Positions 1,161 to 35,025 of a DNA stretch of 64,000 nt are shown here, in pieces. The translations under genes and the position numbers were made by a program. Source of the DNA: Malus domestica (taxonomy: Eukaryota > Streptophyta > Magnoliopsida > Rosales > Rosaceae); contig NC_091661.1 in the NCBI RefSeq assembly GCF_042453785.1, positions 25,535,501 to 25,599,500 of the forward strand. The letters run 5' to 3'. The notes under the pieces are model-generated. The model ran no database searches. It worked only from the letters and a program-made list of their open reading frames with translations, and was not told the DNA's origin. Numbering within the stretch: the first letter of the stretch is position 1; every line of letters starts with the position of its first letter.

Positions 1161-1872
1161 CCTTTATTTAATTTCCAAGTAAATGGCGACCCGGAATAAA
1201 GGTGGGTGTAATTTCCGAAATTGAAAAATAGAAATATTTACTAATTTACCCATGAACTTGTATGAAGCTGTAATTTTTTTTCTGAATTTTAATTAGTCAA
1301 TTTTCCTTGAACTTTAGTCTTAAGCCATTTACCTGCTAGAACTTTGATAAATAGACAATTTTTCCCTTGGTGTTAGTTCATTCAAGAAATAAACGGTTAA
1401 AATTAAAATTCAGAGAAAATTTGATTATGTATAAAAGTTCAAAAAAGTAATCGGTTAAAATTAAAATTATAAAAATAATTGATTAATTATAAAAATTCAG
1501 AAGTTAATCAACTAAAATTAAAATTCAGAAAGCCAACGACAAATGTGCCTTAGAAAAATACACAAATTCACAGCCACTTGATGCAAATAAAATGAACACT
1601 CACCATCAGATGATTCAGATGGATGGGATTGGTGGGGCCTCTCCATAAAAAAGAAAGGATCAGAGGGCCCTTTGAGTCTTGAAAGTTGAAACGCATCCAC
1701 AACACACATGTTTTTGCTTGCTCATATCACGATTAATTAACAGCTTAATAACTTAATTACGTACAAAATACCCTTAAAACGAAAGCATTACATATGAGAA
1801 AATAACAAAAACTCGATTGAAGATTGGCTTGAATGATGATCGTACAACGATTTGAGACGTAATTAACGGTAA
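1161..1872. other. Intergenic, 3' flank of the aquaporin gene
   Basis: AT-rich DNA with short reiterated words around GGTTAAAATTAAAATT (about 1390-1530). No gene is supported. The part next to 1872 probably contains the 3' UTR of the minus-strand aquaporin gene. Confidence 0.5.
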
Positions 1873-3149
1873 TCACTTGGACTTGAAAGGGATGGCCCTG
1901 ATCACAACCACGTGGTACAAAGCTGCAAGTGCTGCCCCAATGAACGGTCCAACCCAGAATATCCACTGCCACAATGAAAAATAAAATAAACTAAAAGTTA
2001 GAACAAAAGTTCAGAAGCCATTGAATGCGTTTTTGAAATTGGAATACAACAATGGCTTTTGGAGAGTGCTCCCCACAAAAGCACTTTCATTCAAGAACAG
2101 TAGTGCTTCTTGTAAAAGCAGTTTTGGATCAATTAGGAAGGCTTACGTGGTCATCCCAGGCATGCTTCTTGTTGTAGATGATGGCAGCGCCAAGACTTCT
2201 TGCTGGGTTGATGCCAGTTCCGGTGACGGGGATGGTGGCCAAGTGCACCAAGAACACGGCGAACCCAATTGGCAACGGAGCCAAAATCTGTTCAAAACCC
2301 ATTCAAAATTCACAGCCAGTTAATCACCAAACCAAATAAAACGCCAACAAAATAATAAAATCAGGAAGTTCAAGCTCAGCTAGGCAAATGATCGGAGACT
2401 AGACATGCGTACCGGAACGTGGGAGTCTCTGGCGCTACGCTTAGCGTCAGTGGCGGAGAAAACGGTGTAGACGAGGACAAAGGTGCCGATGATCTCAGCA
2501 CCAAGTCCTTGACCCTTGGTGTAACCATGGGCAACAGAGTTGGCACCACCGCCCAGCATCTCGAAGGTGGAGCTCTTCTCGAAGCCCTTCACGACGGCGG
2601 CACCGGCGATAGCTCCGAGGGTCTGCATAACTATGTAGAACACCGCCCTGGTCAGCGACAGCTTCCTGGCCAAAAACAGCCCGAAAGTCACCGCCGGGTT
2701 TATGTGACCACCTGAGATATAAACAATAAGATCAACCCCGTTAATCAAGATTTATTTATAATTAAGAATGGATAAATGACACGGCTGCGTTTTATGGGGG
2801 GAAATTAATTACCGGAGATGCCGGCGGTGCTGTAGACGAGGGCGAAGATGGTCCCGCCAAAAGCCCAAGCGATTCCTTGAATCCCGACCGTCGTGCACTT
2901 CGACTTCGACTTGACAACGCCCATCACCGTCAAGATTGTGATGTAGAGGAACAGGAAAGTGGCGATGAACTCGGCGATCCCGGCCCTGTAGAACGACCAT
3001 GACGTCAGCTCGCCGGGCTCGAACAGTGGAGCAGGCGGTGGTTCCTTGTAGTCCTTCCCGTCGTCCTGGCTCTGAGCCGACGTCCCGATCGGCTGCCTCT
3101 CTGAGTACTTGTTCGCTCCCAGCCTAACATCCTCTTCCTTGCCCTCCAT
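1873..3149 (-). CDS. PIP1: Plasma-membrane aquaporin, PIP1 subfamily
   Basis: Water-channel protein of the plasma membrane. Four exons read on the minus strand: 3149-2813, 2711-2413, 2287-2147 and 1965-1873, all with GT-AG borders. They join to 289 residues, the usual PIP1 length (about 286-289). Visible features are an acidic N-terminus starting [15 protein letters not shown], the first pore motif [11 protein letters not shown], the second [11 protein letters not shown], the RDSHVP loop, and a C-terminus ending IRAIPFKSK. The long N-terminus and this C-terminus fit PIP1 rather than PIP2. PIP1 proteins usually need a PIP2 partner to reach the plasma membrane (family knowledge). A TATA-like box lies about 130 bp upstream. 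The last intron (1966-2146) contains a transposon-like segment rich in AAAGCACTTT/AGTGCTTCTT words. Confidence 0.96.
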
Positions 3150-28277: not shown

Positions 28278-28283
28278 TAATAG

Positions 28284-28684
28284 TGTTGATGCACAAAACC
28301 GGAGGGGTTTTGGAACAATATAAATCCAACCGTGAATCTGCAAGAAAGTAAATAACACAAGATGTATCATGGTTCACCCCAATGTTTGGACTACGTCCAC
28401 ACTTATGTTGATATTGTTTCACTTTGAATGGTGAATATACAAGAAGGCTAGAGGCAGTGTACTCTCTAGCCTATTTTCTGTGTTTGCTCTCTCTGAGGTG
28501 TTTTCTCTCTTCCCATGGCCTAAACCTTCACCTTTTCCAATGAGGAGAGTGAGGAGTCCTTTTATAGAATAAAGGCTCATCACTTATTACATATTTGCCC
28601 ATTCATTTATTACATAATTACATTTGAGGCATCCGAGTATTTATACGAGGTCTAAATACAGAGGCTCTAAATATGGTACAAACA
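28284..28684 (-). repeat. 3' LTR of the gene-carrying element
   Basis: 401 bp starting TGTTGATGCACAAAACC and ending GGTACAAACA on the plus strand. Compared with the other LTR I count about 28 differences including one 1-bp gap. The middle has the segment (CTTTTATAGAATAAAGGCTC) that is amplified in the interior. Confidence 0.9.
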
Positions 28685-28903
28685 GTAGTCCCCCAAGTCT
28701 TCAGTCAAGAGAGTCTTTTGGCTGGAGATTTGAAACTTAGTCCATGTGTGGGCTGAAGTAACTAGATGTCGTCTATAACTGATACTCGATATGAGGCGGT
28801 GCTCAATGTGAAATGATGCTCAACTAGAAGTAGCACATGTTGCGAGGCTGCTCGGCTTGTGGCTTATGTTGCCTTGGTTGGCTTGGCTTGTGGTGTTGAA
28901 GGT

Positions 28904-30000
28904 GATGGAGTCCCTTTTATAGAATAAGGGTTCGCTCCTCAATACATAAATGATGGGCTAGAGTTGATACTCGGGCCAGGCAGTTGCTCAGCAGGCAGCA
29001 ATGCTCTCTAATGATGGTGAGGGATTCCCTTTTATAGAATAAGGGCTCACTCCTCAATACATAAGTGATGGCTAAGAGTCTCTCTTTAATGAAGGTGAGG
29101 GAGTCCCTTTTATAGAACAAGGGTTCGCTCCTCAATATATAAATGATAGGTTATGAGTGATGCTCACGGCGAGGCGGTTGCTCAGCTGGCGGCGATGCTC
29201 TATAATAAAGGTGATGGAGTCTCTTTTATAGAATAAGGGCTCGCTCCTTAATACATAAATAATGGCTGCTCTTTAATGAAAGTGAGGGAGTCCCTTTTAT
29301 AGAATAAGTGTTCGCTCCTCAATACATGAATAATGGGTGCTCTCTAATGAAAGTGAGGGAGTCTCTTTTATAGAATAAAGGTTCGCTCCTCAGTACATAA
29401 ATAATGGGCTAAGTCCCCCAAGTATTTTTCATGAGGCCCAGTTGCGGATGCCCTAAATATATGGTACATAGTGTAGTCCCCCAAGTCTTCAGTCAATAGA
29501 GTCTGTTGGCTCGGCTTGTGGCTTATGTTACCTTGGTTGGCTCGACTTGTGGCGTTGAAGGTGAGGGAATCCCTTTTATAGAATAAGGGCTCGTTCCTCA
29601 ATACATAAATGATGGGCTAGAGTTGATGCTCGCGGCGAGGCGGTTGCTCAGCAGGTGGCGATGCTCTCTAATGATGGTGAGGGAGTCCCTTTTGTAGAAT
29701 AAGGGCTCGTTCCTCAATACATAAGTGATGGGCTAAAAGTCTCTCCAATGAAGGTGAGGGAGTCCCTTTTATAGAATAAGGGTTCGCTCCTCAATACATA
29801 AATGATGGGTTAAGAGTGATGCTCGCGGCAAGGCAGTTACTCAACTGGCGGCGATGCTCTCTAATGAAGGTGAGGGAGTTCCTTTTATAGAATAAAGGTT
29901 CGCTCATCAATACATTAATAATGGGTGCTCTCTAATGAAAGTGATGGAGTCCATTTTATAGAATAAGGGTTCACTCCTCAGTACATAAATAATGAGCTAA
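28904..30000. repeat. Interior tandem array of an LTR-like segment
   Basis: Eleven copies of a unit containing GTGAGGGAGTCCCTTTTATA and AATAAGGGCTCGCTCCTCAA, at about 28905, 29020, 29093, 29207, 29278, 29349, 29556, 29677, 29749, 29867 and 29937. Spacers are alternately short (about 70 bp) and longer (about 115 bp or more, with GGCGATGCTC words). The unit resembles the TTTTATAGAATAAAGGCTCAT part of the LTR. Segments like the LTR end plus polypurine tract (CCCCAAGTCTTCAGTCAATA) recur at about 29412-29510 and 30001-30110. Confidence 0.85.
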
Positions 30001-30169
30001 GTCCCCCAAGTATTATTCATGAGGCACAGTTGCGGATGCCCTAAATATATGGTACATAGTGTAGTCCTCCAAGTCTTCAGTTAATAGAGTATGTTGGCTG
30101 GAGACTTCAAATTCAATCCATGTATGGGCCGAAGTGGCGGTTGTTCAAAGGTGGTCTTTGTATACCATG

Positions 30170-30495
30170 CACTGAAGCTTTGTAAGTGAAGCTTTCAAAG
30201 TTGGAGATTTTGTAAATGAAGCTTTCGAAGATGGAGCTCTGTAAATGAAACTTTCGAAGCTGGAGCTCTATAAATGAAGCTTTCGAAGCTATAACTATGT
30301 AAATGAAGCTTTCGAAGTTGGAGCTCTGTAAATGAAACTTTCGAAGCTGGAGCTCTATAAATGAAGCTTTCGAAGCTAGAGCTATGTAAATGAAGCTTTC
30401 GAAGCTGGAGCTCTATAAATGAAGCTTTTGAAGCTGGAGCTCTGTAAATGAAGCTTTCGAAGTTATAGCTCTGTAAATGAAGCTTTCGAAGCTGA
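30170..30495. repeat. Minisatellite of about 29-bp units
   Basis: About eleven copies of GTAAATGAAGCTTTCGAAGC plus TGGAGCTCT, with single-base variants. The minus strand gives a 110-codon open frame with a repeated peptide (SFESFIYRAPA-like); I read it as a by-product of the array, not a gene. Confidence 0.9.
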
Positions 30496-30640
30496 TTGAC
30501 ATGAGTGAAGTTCATGGATGTTGACATGAGTGATGCTCATGAATGTTGACATGAGTGATGCTCATGAATGTTTATGTATGATTGATATGAGTGATGCTCA
30601 TGTATGATGGTGATTGTCATAAGTGATGCTCATGTATGAT
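30496..30640. repeat. Minisatellite with TGACATGAGTGATGCTCATG units
   Basis: Five to six units of about 25-35 bp, each built around GAGTGATGCTCATG. Different sequence from the neighbouring 29-bp array. Non-coding. Confidence 0.85.
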
Positions 30641-30654
30641 TTTTTGGCGGACGG

Positions 30655-30790
30655 GTTGTACTTTTAATTACCTGGTTGGTGATAATAACGGCATGCTGCT
30701 GAATAATTTTGAAGTACTGGACGTACTTTTGATCACCTGGTTGGTGATAATAGCGGTAGGCTGCTAAATAATTTTGGAGTACTTGACGTA
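30655..30790. repeat. Tandem duplication of about 66 bp
   Basis: Two consecutive copies containing CCTGGTTGGTGATAATA, GGCATGCTGCT/GGTAGGCTGCT and AATAATTTTG, followed by a third partial GACGTACTTT. Part of the LTR-element interior. Confidence 0.8.
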
Positions 30791-31356
30791 CTTTATAATT
30801 AGTTATCCTAACACAAATAAAATAATAAGATATTAAATAAACAATGATATTGAGAAAACATAATGATGGGTTTCTTTCAAGCATGGCCGATAGTAATTAT
30901 ATAATTAATAATAGAATGATAACAGATGGCAGACGGAATAAAAACTTATCTTTCTTTTGAATTTGGTGGTCTGTAGCTTTTGATAAAGCTTCATGCACGT
31001 TCTAGGCTGGGAAGGTTGCTTTTAGTAGCTAGCAGATGTTGGAGAATGGACTCACTGCAGGACCGGACCACTTCTTTCCACTTTCCTCCTCAGCTTTTCT
31101 CCATCTCCAGACATTTTTTTTCTTTCTATATTCTTTTCTTCCCTTTTTCTTTTTTCTGCTACATTGCAGGTTTACAACATGGGTGAGCAGCGTAAGAGGA
31201 TAAGCTTTGTCAGAAGCTAAAACGCAGCGTCTCGAAGCTCAGAGACTCACTGGGTTGAGATTCCAAACTCGAAGGATCTGAGTTGGGAGCTGGAATCATG
31301 AGATGAAGAAAGAGATGATCATTAATGAAGCAAGAAGCATCAGGTCCACCGTGTCC

Positions 31357-31789
31357 GTTGAGATACTAAAGACAATGTCTCCAGTTCTAGTGTCGATGTC
31401 GAAGAAGCCGACGTCCTGTTTCAACACGACCTCCAGATACTTCTTCTTCAGCGTGTTCACCTGTCTCTCACCGGTGTACATCCAGTATGCAATCTCTGCG
31501 TAGGATGTTACGCATACTATGAGATCGAGATACACAAAGTACAGAGCATACTTTGCTACTTCTGTGGTCATTTTCTACAAATTCATTTGGTTTTCGCCGA
31601 ACCCGCTAACCATTTCCTCGAACATGAGGAAGAACACCGGCATGGAGGAGCCGTGCACGACGGCGCCCAAGCTTTCAAAGATCATGAGGAGCCAATCGTA
31701 CTTGTCTGCAAAGGAGAACAACTGGAAAAAAAGGGTAGGCTCTGCTCATTCATCTTCTCCGCCTCCGAGAATGTCTTTGCCTCCGCCAT
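31357..31789 (-). pseudogene. ABCB19-like transporter N-terminal fragment (captured)
   Basis: From the ATG at 31789 the minus strand encodes the start of an auxin-transporting ABCB (P-glycoprotein) protein: MAEAKTFSEAEKMNEQSLP, then SFADKYDWLLMIFESLGAVV, HGSSMPVFFLMFEEM, YALYFVYLDLIV, MYTGERQVNTLKKKYLE and QDVGFFDIDTRTGDIVFSIS. This corresponds to TM1-TM2 of the first membrane domain; similarity stops after STDT. Two lesions: one extra T in a T-run after LPFF (near 31720) shifts the frame, and a TAG stands between NQMNL and KMTTEV. The rest of the transporter (nucleotide-binding domains) is absent. It lies wholly inside the LTR element and has the same orientation. Confidence 0.88.
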
Positions 31790-31832
31790 TGCAGCAGCTC
31801 AGCTACTAATGGGTGGCCGGAGCAAACAATTA

Positions 31833-32280
31833 GTAATAAAGTGAACCTTGCCACCAGTTTCCTCTCGAAGCACTATTTGCATCGTCCTCACTGCCATCTT
31901 TCTTAGAAGTATGATGCTGATGGGATTCAGTGGTCCCAGTTCTTGGACTATAATTTTCTTGGCCGCCATAATAGATAGATGAACTCAGGTTGCATGGATC
32001 CGTAGCTTCGTTTTGATACATATTGGAAGCTTTGCTGGTTTTGTTTTCACCCTTATTATCAGAAAAACTTGGACTCCCGTACATACTAGCTTGATCTCCA
32101 AAATCCTGCCTTCTCTCTTTCCCAACTCCCGTTGAGGGGACGGGTGGGAAAATGGAGCCAAAGAATCCGGAAAGGGGATAATGAAGAAGATGACGACGAG
32201 TCTTTGAGACTAAATAAATGATCCAGACTCCTTGATGATGACGAAGAAGAAGAAGAGCCATGGCTTGCACCACTTCCCAC
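31833..32280 (-). pseudogene. Captured small plant gene ending -GNWWQGSLYY
   Basis: The minus strand starts MGSGASHGSSSSS and SRSLDHLFSLKD in one frame, then continues in another as GFFGSIFPPVPSTG, GKERRQDFGD, SSSIYYGGQENYSP, EDDANSASRGNWWQGSLYY and a stop. One frameshift in the Ser-rich stretch (about 32150-32200) separates the halves. Together they span about 148 codons from start to stop. It resembles an uncharacterised plant protein family with a Ser-rich start and that C-terminal signature; function unknown. The upstream 450 bp (to 32760) look like ordinary 5' flank or leader, so more than the coding part may have been captured. Confidence 0.72.
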
Positions 32281-32760
32281 TTTCTTCTTGTTCTCTATCG
32301 TAGTTAATTAGTGAACTGAAGCTAAAGCTGGTATGTTACAAAAGCTGCTTTCAGCTTTGTCAACCAACGAACATATTCTAACTACTGCTTTTTGATAGTT
32401 GTTGATAGTTATCTCTTAATGGTCAAAGACTCAGAAGCAGAGATTGGATAAGGTTTGCAGAATAAGGATTCAGAAACCAACAACTTAAAGAGATAAAATT
32501 GGAGGGAGGGCAGATAGGAAGCAGGAAAGAGCACGTGAAGTTTTGCAGATGTCTGAAAATTGGCCGAGGAAATCGCATCGTTGAAATCCTTATGCATCTG
32601 CAGATTCTAGTCTTTTTTAAATCCCTGGTTGCAGATCGAGTAGGATCTCGAGTTGTGTAGATTCATGGTGGACAATTATGAAGTTTTCACGGTGGTGAGA
32701 TGAAAAAATGAAAGAGAACCGACATAACTTTTCGTGTCGTTTCCCACAGAAGGCGCCAAA

Positions 32761-33162
32761 TGTTGATGCACAAAACCGGAAGGGTCTTGGAACAACATAA
32801 ATCCGACCGTGAATCTGCAAGAAAGTAAAGAACACAAGATGTATCGTGGTTCACCCCAATGTTTGGGCTACGTCCACACTGATGTTGATATTGTTTCACT
32901 TTGAATGGTGAATATACAAGAAGGCTAGAGGCAATGTGCTCTCTAGCCTATTTTCTGTGTTTGCCCTCTCTGAGGTGTTTTCTCTCTTCCCATGGCCTAA
33001 ACCTTCACCTTTTTCTAATGAGGAGAGTGAGAAGTCATTTTATAGAATAAGGGCTCCTCACTTATTACATATTTGCCCCTTTATTTATTACATAATTACA
33101 TTTGAGTTCCTCGAGTATTTATACAAGGTCTAAATACGGAGACCCTAAATATGGTACAAACA
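32761..33162 (-). repeat. 5' LTR of the gene-carrying element
   Basis: 402 bp. On the minus strand it reads TGTTTGTACC...CATCAACA and is followed by TTTGGCGCCTTCTGTGGGAA, the primer-binding site. CATCAACATTTGGCGCC is a junction often seen in plant Gypsy-type elements (family knowledge). Confidence 0.88.
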
Positions 33163-33465
33163 AATAGGATGATGAACGCTACCACTATTTAAGTATAAAC
33201 TTTTATTTGATAAGGTTAAGCTAAAGTTAGAAAGGTAGTTTAATATTTCTTTTTCTGGATATGTCTTACAATCTAATTGTTATTACAAATTACACTTTAT
33301 CGATAGGTCGTCTATTGATTAGATAATTGTTTAATATTTCTATACTTTTAGCTCTTGAGAAAGTTTTTAATTTGTCAAAAATATGACTTGGTATATTATG
33401 TCATCATACATAAAGAGAGATACTTGAAAGTACAATTGTCTTTCTTTAGATAATAACATGTGGTG

Positions 33466-35025
33466 TGTTGAATATCAGAATACGCAACAAACGAGACTAA
33501 CAAAATAATAGGAATATTATTAAACTAACTGATAATGCCGGAACGGCTACAAAGCCCTAAGAGACTACATTGTGAATAACTTGATTTCTAATGAATAACA
33601 AAGCACTCTATTTATAATAAACTAACCCTAAACCCTAATGCTAACGGGCTAAGCCCAGAAAACCAAATATTAAAGTAAACCTAAATACTAATATTTTCCA
33701 ACACCCCCCGTCAAACTCATGGCGGTATACGACATGGGTTTGCAAACAAGCAGATGCGGACTGGCTCCGTTAAGCGGACAGACAGACAGGCAGGCGTTGC
33801 CGCAACGCGGACAGACAGACAGGCAGGCTCTGCAACGCGGACAGACAGACTCCGCAACGCGGACAGACAGACAGGCAGGTACGCAAACTTGACTTGACTT
33901 GATTCTTGACTTGATTCTTGATTGCAAACTGGCAAATTGGTTCTTGATTCTTGACTGGCTAGTGTTGAGAGTATGAAAAGAACCCGTCACTAAACGGACG
34001 AGATTTTCATATTTCAATTCTAGCAACGAACAAACAAACACAAATACTATCACTCGAATGGTCACAATTCCAAGTACTCAAATGACGATCATAAAACAAT
34101 TCCAAACAGGCCAACCAACAATTCATGGAGGCCTAAAACAAACTTAACCATACTTTCCCTGCCCGTGTGGGCCCATAAACAAACAGCCAATTTTTTTTTC
34201 TTTCTCCTGGGACTTTTCGAATGCTTTCCTCCAACAAACAACATAACTTTTTCTTGCATTGGACAATAGTTTTTCTTTTTCTTTCTTTTCCTTTTTAATA
34301 GAAAATTAACACAACAAAAGCAAGAATGGGTACTGGTGAATGGTTCAGACGAACGGCTGGGACTGGGTTAGGTTGCAGCGATGCGGGTGTGAGTCGGGTT
34401 GATCTGATATGGTGCATGTATGGTTCTGTCGGTGCTGGTGCTAGGCATATGCGAGCAAGTGTAGCGAGGATGGAGAGATTTAGGACTGAGTTGCAGGTGA
34501 TGGGTCGGCGCCGGAGATTCAAGTGGGTCTGGCAACGGGTGGTGGTGTGGCTGGTGTTGGATACGAACGGCAGATGTGCTGGGTTTCTAGTTGCAGACCT
34601 GGTACGAAGGCTGATGGCTGGGTGACGATGCAGCGGAAGTGGGGCAGATTCTGGTGAGTCGTCCGAGCAAACATAATCAAATTTTTTTCTTTTCAAAACG
34701 AACACTGAAAACTATTATCAAACAAACGACATGGATACCTATCAAGAACAGATTAAATCCCGAAAGATCAAACCTGCTCTGATACCATGTTGAATATCAG
34801 AATACGCAACAAACGAGACTAACAAAATAATAGGAATATTATTAAACTAAATGATAATGCCGGAACGGCTACAAAGCCCTAAGAGACTACATTGTGAATA
34901 GCTTGATTTCTAATGAATAACAAAACACTCTATTTATAATAAACTAACCCTAAACCCTAATGCTAACGGGCTAAGCCCATAAAACCAAATATTAAAGTAA
35001 ACCTAAATACTAATATTTTCCAACA
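33466..35025 (-). mobile_element. TRIM-like mini LTR retrotransposon
   Basis: 1560 bp. LTRs 33466-33703 and 34788-35025 are 238 bp each with four differences (98.3% identity). Target-site duplication TGGTG is perfect at 33461-33465 and 35026-35030. On the minus strand the 5' LTR (right) is followed by TGGTATCAGAGCAG at 34787-34774, the initiator-tRNA-Met primer site used by many plant elements, and the 3' LTR (left) is preceded by GACGGGGGG. The interior (33704-34787) has no gag or pol; it holds a CGGACAGACAGACAGGCAGG repeat (33772-33880) and TTGATTCTTGACTTG repeats. Too small to encode its machinery; slightly above the usual TRIM size. Confidence 0.93.
33772..33880. repeat. Short tandem repeat in the TRIM interior
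   Basis: Four copies of GCGGACAGACAGACAGGCAG with spacers such as GCAACGC; the third copy is shortened. It makes the minus-strand frame read Cys/Leu/Ser/Val-rich peptides without meaning. Confidence 0.85.

Follow-up and report, generated by a model that had tools for sequence, protein, structure and literature searches.

An apple LTR retroelement with a chain of intron-free host gene pieces in its interior, and a family in which the cargo differs between sampled copies

In a 64,000-nucleotide stretch of the apple (Malus domestica) genome (assembly GCF_042453785.1, contig NC_091661.1, positions 25,535,501 to 25,599,500 of the forward strand; referred to here as the window), positions 28284-33162 are occupied by a complete long terminal repeat (LTR) element of 4,879 bp on the minus strand. 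Strung together in its cargo are pieces of at least four host genes located on different chromosomes, all traced pieces being in sense orientation. We read the element, with a probability of roughly 85%, as a non-autonomous LTR retrotransposon whose gag-pol slot has been filled with copies of spliced host RNA. Established parts of this reading are the LTRs, the target-site duplication (TSD), the layout of leader, cargo, and tandem-repeat 3′ region, the intron-free sense cargo, and the presence of the same layout with other genes elsewhere in the genome.

The element interior was searched against the host assembly (651 Mb, 19 contigs; the listed places lie on C1 to C17). Matches often came in the pairs C9/C17, C8/C15, C5/C10, and C1/C7, which we take to be apple homoeologues. 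Five parental introns, all read at their splice sites, are absent from the element (three from a gene that we call gene A and two from ABCB19), which indicates that these pieces entered as spliced RNA. Gene A, whose parent is on C1, encodes an uncharacterised small protein with the C-terminal end SRGNWWQGSLYY; neither a Pfam search with gene A nor a literature search for this peptide found anything. Its exons 1 to 4 are 96.4, 94.6, 98.4, and 92.9% identical to those of the parent. The piece begins 33 nt downstream of TATAAATAG in the parent (in that locus, a TATA-type motif lies ∼18 to 41 nt upstream of 1.9% of positions, 121/6441) and ends at an inferred 5′ splice site, where the parent continues with GTAACA, so that the parental 3′ end is not included. 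Its reading frame is dead, with the ATG lost and a frameshift.

The ABCB19 piece is the part of the cargo that an earlier note, made from the sequence of the window without database searches, had recognised and placed in the element's own orientation, and Pfam (ABC_membrane, 1.3e-14), PDB (chains named ABCB19, 1.4e-37, chain residues 79-154), and a DNA parent on C9 agree with it; the match is far above chance. An antisense position of the piece was rejected, as element and piece both read on the minus strand. The extent given in the note, 31357-31789, lies within the piece, which is slightly longer (31804-31351); position 31789 is its ATG. Exons 1 to 3 are 93.7%, 98.2%, and 93.1% identical to the parent on C9, the copy on C17 being more distant, and the frame is dead: it contains a TAG stop and 2 inserted nt that the parent does not have. 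The description as an element carrying ABCB19 had the anatomy right but was too narrow: ABCB19 is one of at least four donors, and at least three others had been overlooked. Because of these donors, and because other copies of the family carry other genes, there is no "ABCB19-carrying" kind of element; the ABCB19 content is incidental and the interest lies in the family.

The chain continues with a short piece of a gene with matches on C14 and C12, presumably a PP2C gene by its motif, which ends at an inferred 5′ splice site (the parent continues with GTGAGT), and with a piece matching the apparent 5′ untranslated region (UTR) of a gene on C7, where the match is preceded by CTTCTCTCTGACTCAGG. 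Given an identity of 86.6%, the C7 sequence is perhaps a paralogue of the true donor. The last piece, of 60 nt, is common to family elements on C5 and C10 (Table 1). The slots of these two elements (L070 on C5 and L069 on C10) also hold U-box-like and calmodulin-like pieces, names that we assume from motifs. The capture of genes by an LTR element without gag-pol, as the earlier note had proposed, is borne out by these intron-free host pieces between the LTRs. Two marks of retroduplication, the absence of parental introns and the location of the captured genes between the LTRs of one insertion, were found here; a third mark, which PMC5664825 (seen in extract) lists as a poly(A) tail at the 3′ end of the retrogene, was not, and the captured pieces examined, all 5′ or internal parts of transcripts, end within exons or at inferred 5′ splice sites.

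The element itself has what defines an LTR retrotransposon, namely, paired LTRs, TG...CA ends, and a short target duplication. The paired LTRs, the AATAG duplication, and the primer-site-like TTTGGCGCC and polypurine-like CTTGGGGGACTAC beside the LTRs were all in place as the note had described them, and the common 5-bp TSD assigns both LTRs to one insertion; the LTR identity, estimated there as about 93%, came to 94.0% by alignment (376/400 aligned positions identical; 17 transitions, 7 transversions; K2P 0.063). At 1.3e-8 substitutions per site and year, a rate quoted in PMC5664825 (seen in extract), this divergence corresponds to an insertion age of about 2.4 million years. The element runs from right to left, since TTTGGCGCC adjoins the right LTR and CTTGGGGGACTAC adjoins the left LTR; by their place, both are candidates for a primer site and a polypurine tract, and an Rfam search and a tRNA scan gave nothing informative. 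The absence of retroelement genes also held: in the selected stop-free interior open reading frames (ORFs), a profile scan found no retroelement family at the cut-off, in keeping with a non-autonomous element (the row for HERV-K_REC, with an E value of 0.31, was far under it). A KIX_2 match above the cut-off on an ORF of the tandem repeats was taken as a repeat artefact. The TATA motif of the LTR, TCTATAAAA, occurs in 10 sense-strand copies in the tandem-repeat region at 28686-30794 and once in each LTR; the element thereby holds 12 of the 13 copies in the whole window (both strands), and none lies on its antisense strand. Arranged in series in this way, promoter segments of the LTR could give rise to transcription in the direction of the 3′ LTR. 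Beside the element, at 33717-34077, lies a GACAGACAGG-type repeat that resembles a repeat beside the LTR of copy L022 and is probably another interspersed repeat.

The note had suggested a genome search for the ABCB19 parent and for other copies, and this search succeeded on both counts: besides the parent on C9, the joint between gene A and ABCB19 was found in insertions on C8 and C15. When up to 2 mismatches are allowed, a 22-base pattern that spans this joint has exactly three matches in the genome (C8, the window, and C15; reversed control, 0), and the chimera has therefore moved. The possibility that the ABCB piece is a private nested insertion was rejected on the same ground, as the joint into the piece is also present on C8 and C15. 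The C8 and C15 elements have ∼1.9 kb of interior in common at 91 to 93% and no common flanks within the 9.9 kb read, and for lack of common flanks the idea that they might be a pair predating a duplication was dropped. Over gene A exon 2, the C1 parent is matched more closely by the C8 copy (213/219) than by the window copy (210/222). Two exon-2 bases are common to the three elements against C1; both also occur in the C7 homologue and so do not count as derived, and one exon-3 base is common to all three against C1 (a comparison made without C7). A further element, on C10, has the PP2C/5′UTR joint in common with the window element and different material in front of it. The joints shared among the C8, C15, C10, and window elements indicate that blocks of cargo are inherited and recombined.

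A 36-base pattern from the leader, with up to 3 mismatches, gave 948 matches in the genome (control, 0). An LTR query gave 3465 loose first-look candidates, of which the best 40 were scored, all with at least 94% identity; 29 LTR loci besides the window's comprised 10 5′ ends with the leader, 13 3′ ends with the tandem region, and 6 with the LTR only. The 10 5′ ends, together with the best ten new ones from the leader list, formed a sample of 20 copies, both halves being the copies most similar to the query and not a random draw, and about 1.4 to 1.5 kb of slot was read per copy. Copies outside this sample (L009, L010, L017, L060-L070, L087, and L090) were chosen for shared cargo. Among the 210 pairs formed by the 20 copies and the window element, compared over the first 1.4 to 1.6 kb, 8 had a match of at least 60 nt beyond the leader, and no two slots were alike as a whole. 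L030 has 259 nt in common with L075 and 112 nt with L072, which indicates that cargo blocks pass between copies; L042 and L080 have in common a nested antisense LTR of the same family within the cargo (near 2874 in L042), and in the remaining five pairs the matches are short and lie close to the far end of the part compared. Pfam found no retroelement family in 39 ORFs of the 20 copies; these ORFs had been chosen by eye as long and protein-like. Host domains above the cut-off were present in 8 of the 20 copies: leucine-rich repeat (LRR) N-terminal in L023, aquaporin in L030, U-box and RRM in L035, syntaxin in L071, DUF7815 in L072, papain-type protease in L076, R13L1/DRL21 LRR in L078, and SHMT in L079. 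With L042, which has a DNA parent on C7 (92 to 93%) and an ORF match to the ABC-2 transporter family just below the cut-off, a host gene is confirmed in 9 of the 20.

Seven copies (the window element, L042, L076, L071, L023, L079, and L030) were searched against the genome for donors, and in six of them, the window element included, one or more parental introns are missing. The splice sites themselves were read in three copies, the window element, L076, and L023, and no retained intron was found in the pieces of these three whose joints were read; in L071, L079, and L030, the loss is taken from coordinates alone. L076 carries a C10 gene without two introns, a C5 cysteine-protease gene without one, and a C4 piece. 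L071 carries a C1 syntaxin gene from which two gaps have been removed, the C5 protease gene that is also found in L076, and further matches; the protease gene was captured in different parts by the two copies (662-785 in L071 and 796-1164 in L076). L023 combines a CCT4-like gene (C6), a C12 gene without one intron, and an LRR gene on C5. The CCT4-like chaperonin gene is repeated cargo, seen in L023, L087, and L090, which lie on C13 (two places) and probably on C8. L079 carries a C1 gene that we take from its motif to be kinesin-like, with one gap removed, and matches at least four more loci that we count as donors; for three of these, a different chromosome holds a second match. L030 carries a C6 aquaporin gene with one gap removed. 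Some of the further matches in L071, L079, and L030 may be other elements rather than genes. L042 is uninformative on intron loss because its match is one uninterrupted stretch of a C7 gene, ended by the nested antisense LTR.

At the joints, neighbouring pieces overlap by 2 nt (gene A/ABCB), 8 nt (ABCB/PP2C, ACGGACAC), and 8 nt (CCT4/C12 of L023, TTGTTTTC), and a single unassigned base stands between the PP2C and C7 pieces. We read the parental continuation for eight piece ends, a small number of joints; left out of this count were piece 1 of L076 (its end may be an ordinary exon joint, with the next exon perhaps beyond the stretch), the ABC-transporter piece of L042 (cut by the nested LTR), the C12 piece of L023 (blurred end), and the 3′ end of the syntaxin piece. 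An inferred parental 5′ splice site coincides exactly with three of the eight ends, those of gene A, PP2C, and the L076 protease piece from C5. The piece after gene A begins after ...ATCAACAAG in ABCB19, and the start of the piece after PP2C is no more than one base away from ...GACTCAG of C7; both of these pieces have a known source and start at an AG or no more than one base from it. The pieces are weighted toward the 5′ parts of genes (gene A, ABCB19, and the C7 5′UTR here; aquaporin, syntaxin, and LRR starts in other copies), a bias that is not absolute, since the SHMT piece is internal (profile positions 103-143).

TABLE 1 Features of the apple LTR element and its flanks; counted from its 5′ end, element position p equals window position 33163 minus p
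Feature	Window positions	Positions from element 5′ end	Strand	Evidence
TSD AATAG, left copy	28279-28283		none	Sequence
3′ LTR, 401 nt, minus-strand reading TGTTTGTACC...ATCAACA	28284-28684		-	94.0% identity to other LTR
Polypurine-tract-like CTTGGGGGACTAC, adjoining left (3′) LTR	28685-28697		-	Sequence
Family 3′ region with tandem arrays (units of 29, 65, 71, and 193 bp among others), common to other copies	28686-30794		-	
Purine-rich stretch, partly shared with other members of the family	30795-31163		-	
60-nt piece common to family elements on C5 and C10 (86.7 and 88.3%)	31164-31223	1940-1999	-	
Piece matching apparent 5′UTR of C7 gene, 86.6%	31213-31294	1869-1950	-	Genome match
PP2C-like piece (DGHGGPDAS...INDHLFLHLM), matching C14 (96.8%) and C12 (95.2%)	31296-31358	1805-1867	-	
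ABCB19 piece, 15 nt of 5′UTR and exons 1-3, parent on C9	31351-31804	1359-1812	-	DNA, Pfam, PDB
ABCB19 exons 1, 2, and 3	31804-31551, 31550-31496, 31495-31351		-	Both introns absent
Gene A piece, exons 1-4, three GT-AG introns absent, parent on C1	31803-32551	612-1360	-	Genome match
100-nt stretch between leader and gene A, outside the coverage of genome matches	32552-32651		-	
Primer-site-like TTTGGCGCC and family leader, adjoining right (5′) LTR	32652-32760		-	
5′ LTR, 402 nt	32761-33162		-	LTR alignment
TSD AATAG, right copy	33163-33167		none	Sequence

Several observations weigh against our interpretation, or against parts of it. In 11 of the 20 sampled copies no Pfam match rose above the cut-off, cargo donors having been traced by DNA only elsewhere, and a statement that every copy carries host genes would go beyond the 9 of 20 confirmed and is not shown. 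The slots were read for only ∼1.4 to 1.5 kb, in L042 and L080 partly through the nested LTR, so that gag-pol could lie further in, and no autonomous partner was seen among the best 40 of the 3465 loose LTR candidates, where no proper search for one was made and a rare partner would escape. A 58-nt gap in the CCT4 piece of L023, considered as a possible intron, was rejected as a coding deletion. Five of the eight piece ends (ABCB19, the C7 5′UTR, C4 of L076, C5 of L071, and CCT4 of L023) lie off splice sites, and the three on splice sites were inferred from genomic sequence alone. The ABCB piece begins 15 nt ahead of its ATG and 293 nt downstream of the nearest TATATAA, and for this reason not every piece begins at a transcript start.

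Other origins of the cargo would have left different traces. Capture at the DNA level, of the Pack-MULE or Helitron type, or gap repair within the element would have copied genomic pieces with their introns, and the many donors from different chromosomes in one element are indeed something that Helitrons can show; the element has LTR ends, however, all pieces traced in the window are in sense, and introns are absent exactly at GT-AG sites in the gene A, ABCB19, L076, and L023 pieces, so that we regard this origin as scarcely credible. Successive LINE-type insertion of processed pseudogenes into an ordinary LTR element would also give pieces without introns, and LINE-like retroposition exists in dicots (PMC4838847, seen in extract), but overlaps of 2, 8, and 8 nt and one spare base cannot accommodate tails or target duplications, the gene A piece starts 33 nt from its TATA motif and is without its 3′ end, and the position between leader and 3′ region is occupied by different genes in different copies. 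This course of events is very unlikely. Unlikely, too, is a function of the ABCB piece within the element, either as a small interfering RNA (siRNA) regulator of ABCB19 or as a coding gene: exon identities of 93 to 98% to the parent would in principle be enough for siRNA cross-talk, and for maize an association of siRNAs with captured genes has been reported (PMC13317346, seen in extract), yet the ABCB piece has a stop and a frameshift, gene A has lost its start codon and is frameshifted, and other copies carry other genes.

We retain the interpretation that spliced host RNA filled the gag-pol slot, and favour minus-strand template switching on spliced RNA as its route, because introns are absent, the pieces are in sense, and they are weighted toward 5′ ends. 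Minus-strand synthesis runs 3′ to 5′ on its RNA template. With enzymes presumably supplied in trans by an unseen relative, reverse transcriptase would leave the element RNA during this synthesis, copy a host transcript toward its 5′ end, and then switch back to a leader; cargo-bearing copies would then transpose and recombine. How the individual joints arose is less settled. It is close to an even bet that pure template switching between unrelated packaged mRNAs made all of them and that the coincidences with splice sites are due to chance; abnormal switching has been described for plant LTR elements (PMC1950507 and PMC13317346, both seen in extract), and two joints show 8-nt microhomologies, whereas three of eight ends on inferred 5′ splice sites stand against ∼1% each expected by chance (a rough estimate from exon lengths, not computed). 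Since those three ends lie on 5′ splice sites and the following pieces start at or near AG, we tentatively propose, at somewhat less than even odds, that some captures began as spliced RNAs of a gene and an element lying in sense within one of its introns. In such an RNA, host exons would be followed by a cryptic acceptor in older cargo and then by the element 3′ end that reverse transcriptase needs, and the element would be completed when reverse transcriptase, in a last switch at the capped 5′ end, moved on to the leader of a second element RNA.

In its widest form, which we hold possible though short of probable, the proposal is that a family of about a thousand or more leader-bearing copies acts as a genome-wide sampler of RNA: its former gag-pol slot would be refilled again and again with chained 5′ parts of spliced host transcripts, joined in part by the spliceosome on gene-element RNAs and in part by switches at microhomologies, and the resulting mosaics would be amplified and reshuffled as new exon combinations. 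Such a family may supply exon-shuffled sequence and small RNAs directed at host genes, and may give rise to false gene models. In our reading, the cited literature treats mRNA capture by plant LTR elements as single events or as lists of genes and leaves the formation of the joints unsettled; a fairly young family with many mosaics in one assembly makes the joints countable by transcript starts, splice sites, and microhomology.

In retroviral transduction, a read-through or spliced chimeric RNA and a second template switch yield intron-free host sequence, and what we propose here is its mirror image, with host 5′ exons joined to the 3′ part of the element. The comparisons that follow refer to extracts of the cited papers. 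Bs1 of maize is an LTR element with pieces of three host genes (PMC13317346), consisting of exons only (PMC4717578); like the window element it holds multiple intron-free host genes, but Bs1 has one set of three, whereas the sets differ between copies here. Template switching has been described for Veju and BARE (PMC13317346 and PMC1950507). LTR-mediated retroduplication of NLR and other genes from spliced mRNA is known from pepper, tomato, potato, and rice, with elements lacking gag or pol accounting for ∼72% of the NLRs retroduplicated in pepper and with cases of two or three genes per element (PMC5664825); those NLR genes are under purifying selection, whereas the pieces described here are short, decayed, unrelated, and chained within one LTR family. 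Lists of LTR-captured genes count 672 in rice, 1,343 in sorghum, and 424 in maize (PMC3726574); they concern annotated genes, and in the text available no chained pieces are described and the word "intron" is absent from the main text. Among 289 subfamilies of terminal-repeat retrotransposons in miniature (TRIMs), 30 elements of 7 subfamilies in soybean and Medicago carry gene fragments (PMC4717578). TRIMs resemble the present case in holding exons without introns in a small LTR element, and differ from the window element, which at 4,879 bp, with LTRs of 401 and 402 bp and a long tandem-repeat region, is outside their size range. In the Retand lineage of Gypsy, about half of the active elements have tandem arrays between pol and the 3′ LTR (PMC11963269); the window element has arrays before its 3′ LTR and no detected pol, so that the likeness is by the arrays alone. 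A survey of Rosaceae elements contains neither "captur" nor "gene fragment" in its main text (PMC11197308), and open-access titles and abstracts, apple papers included and subscription journals mostly outside the scope, gave no description of this LTR family or of a family-wide mosaic slot. The capture of mRNA by LTR elements is already known; the family-wide mosaic from many donors looks new.

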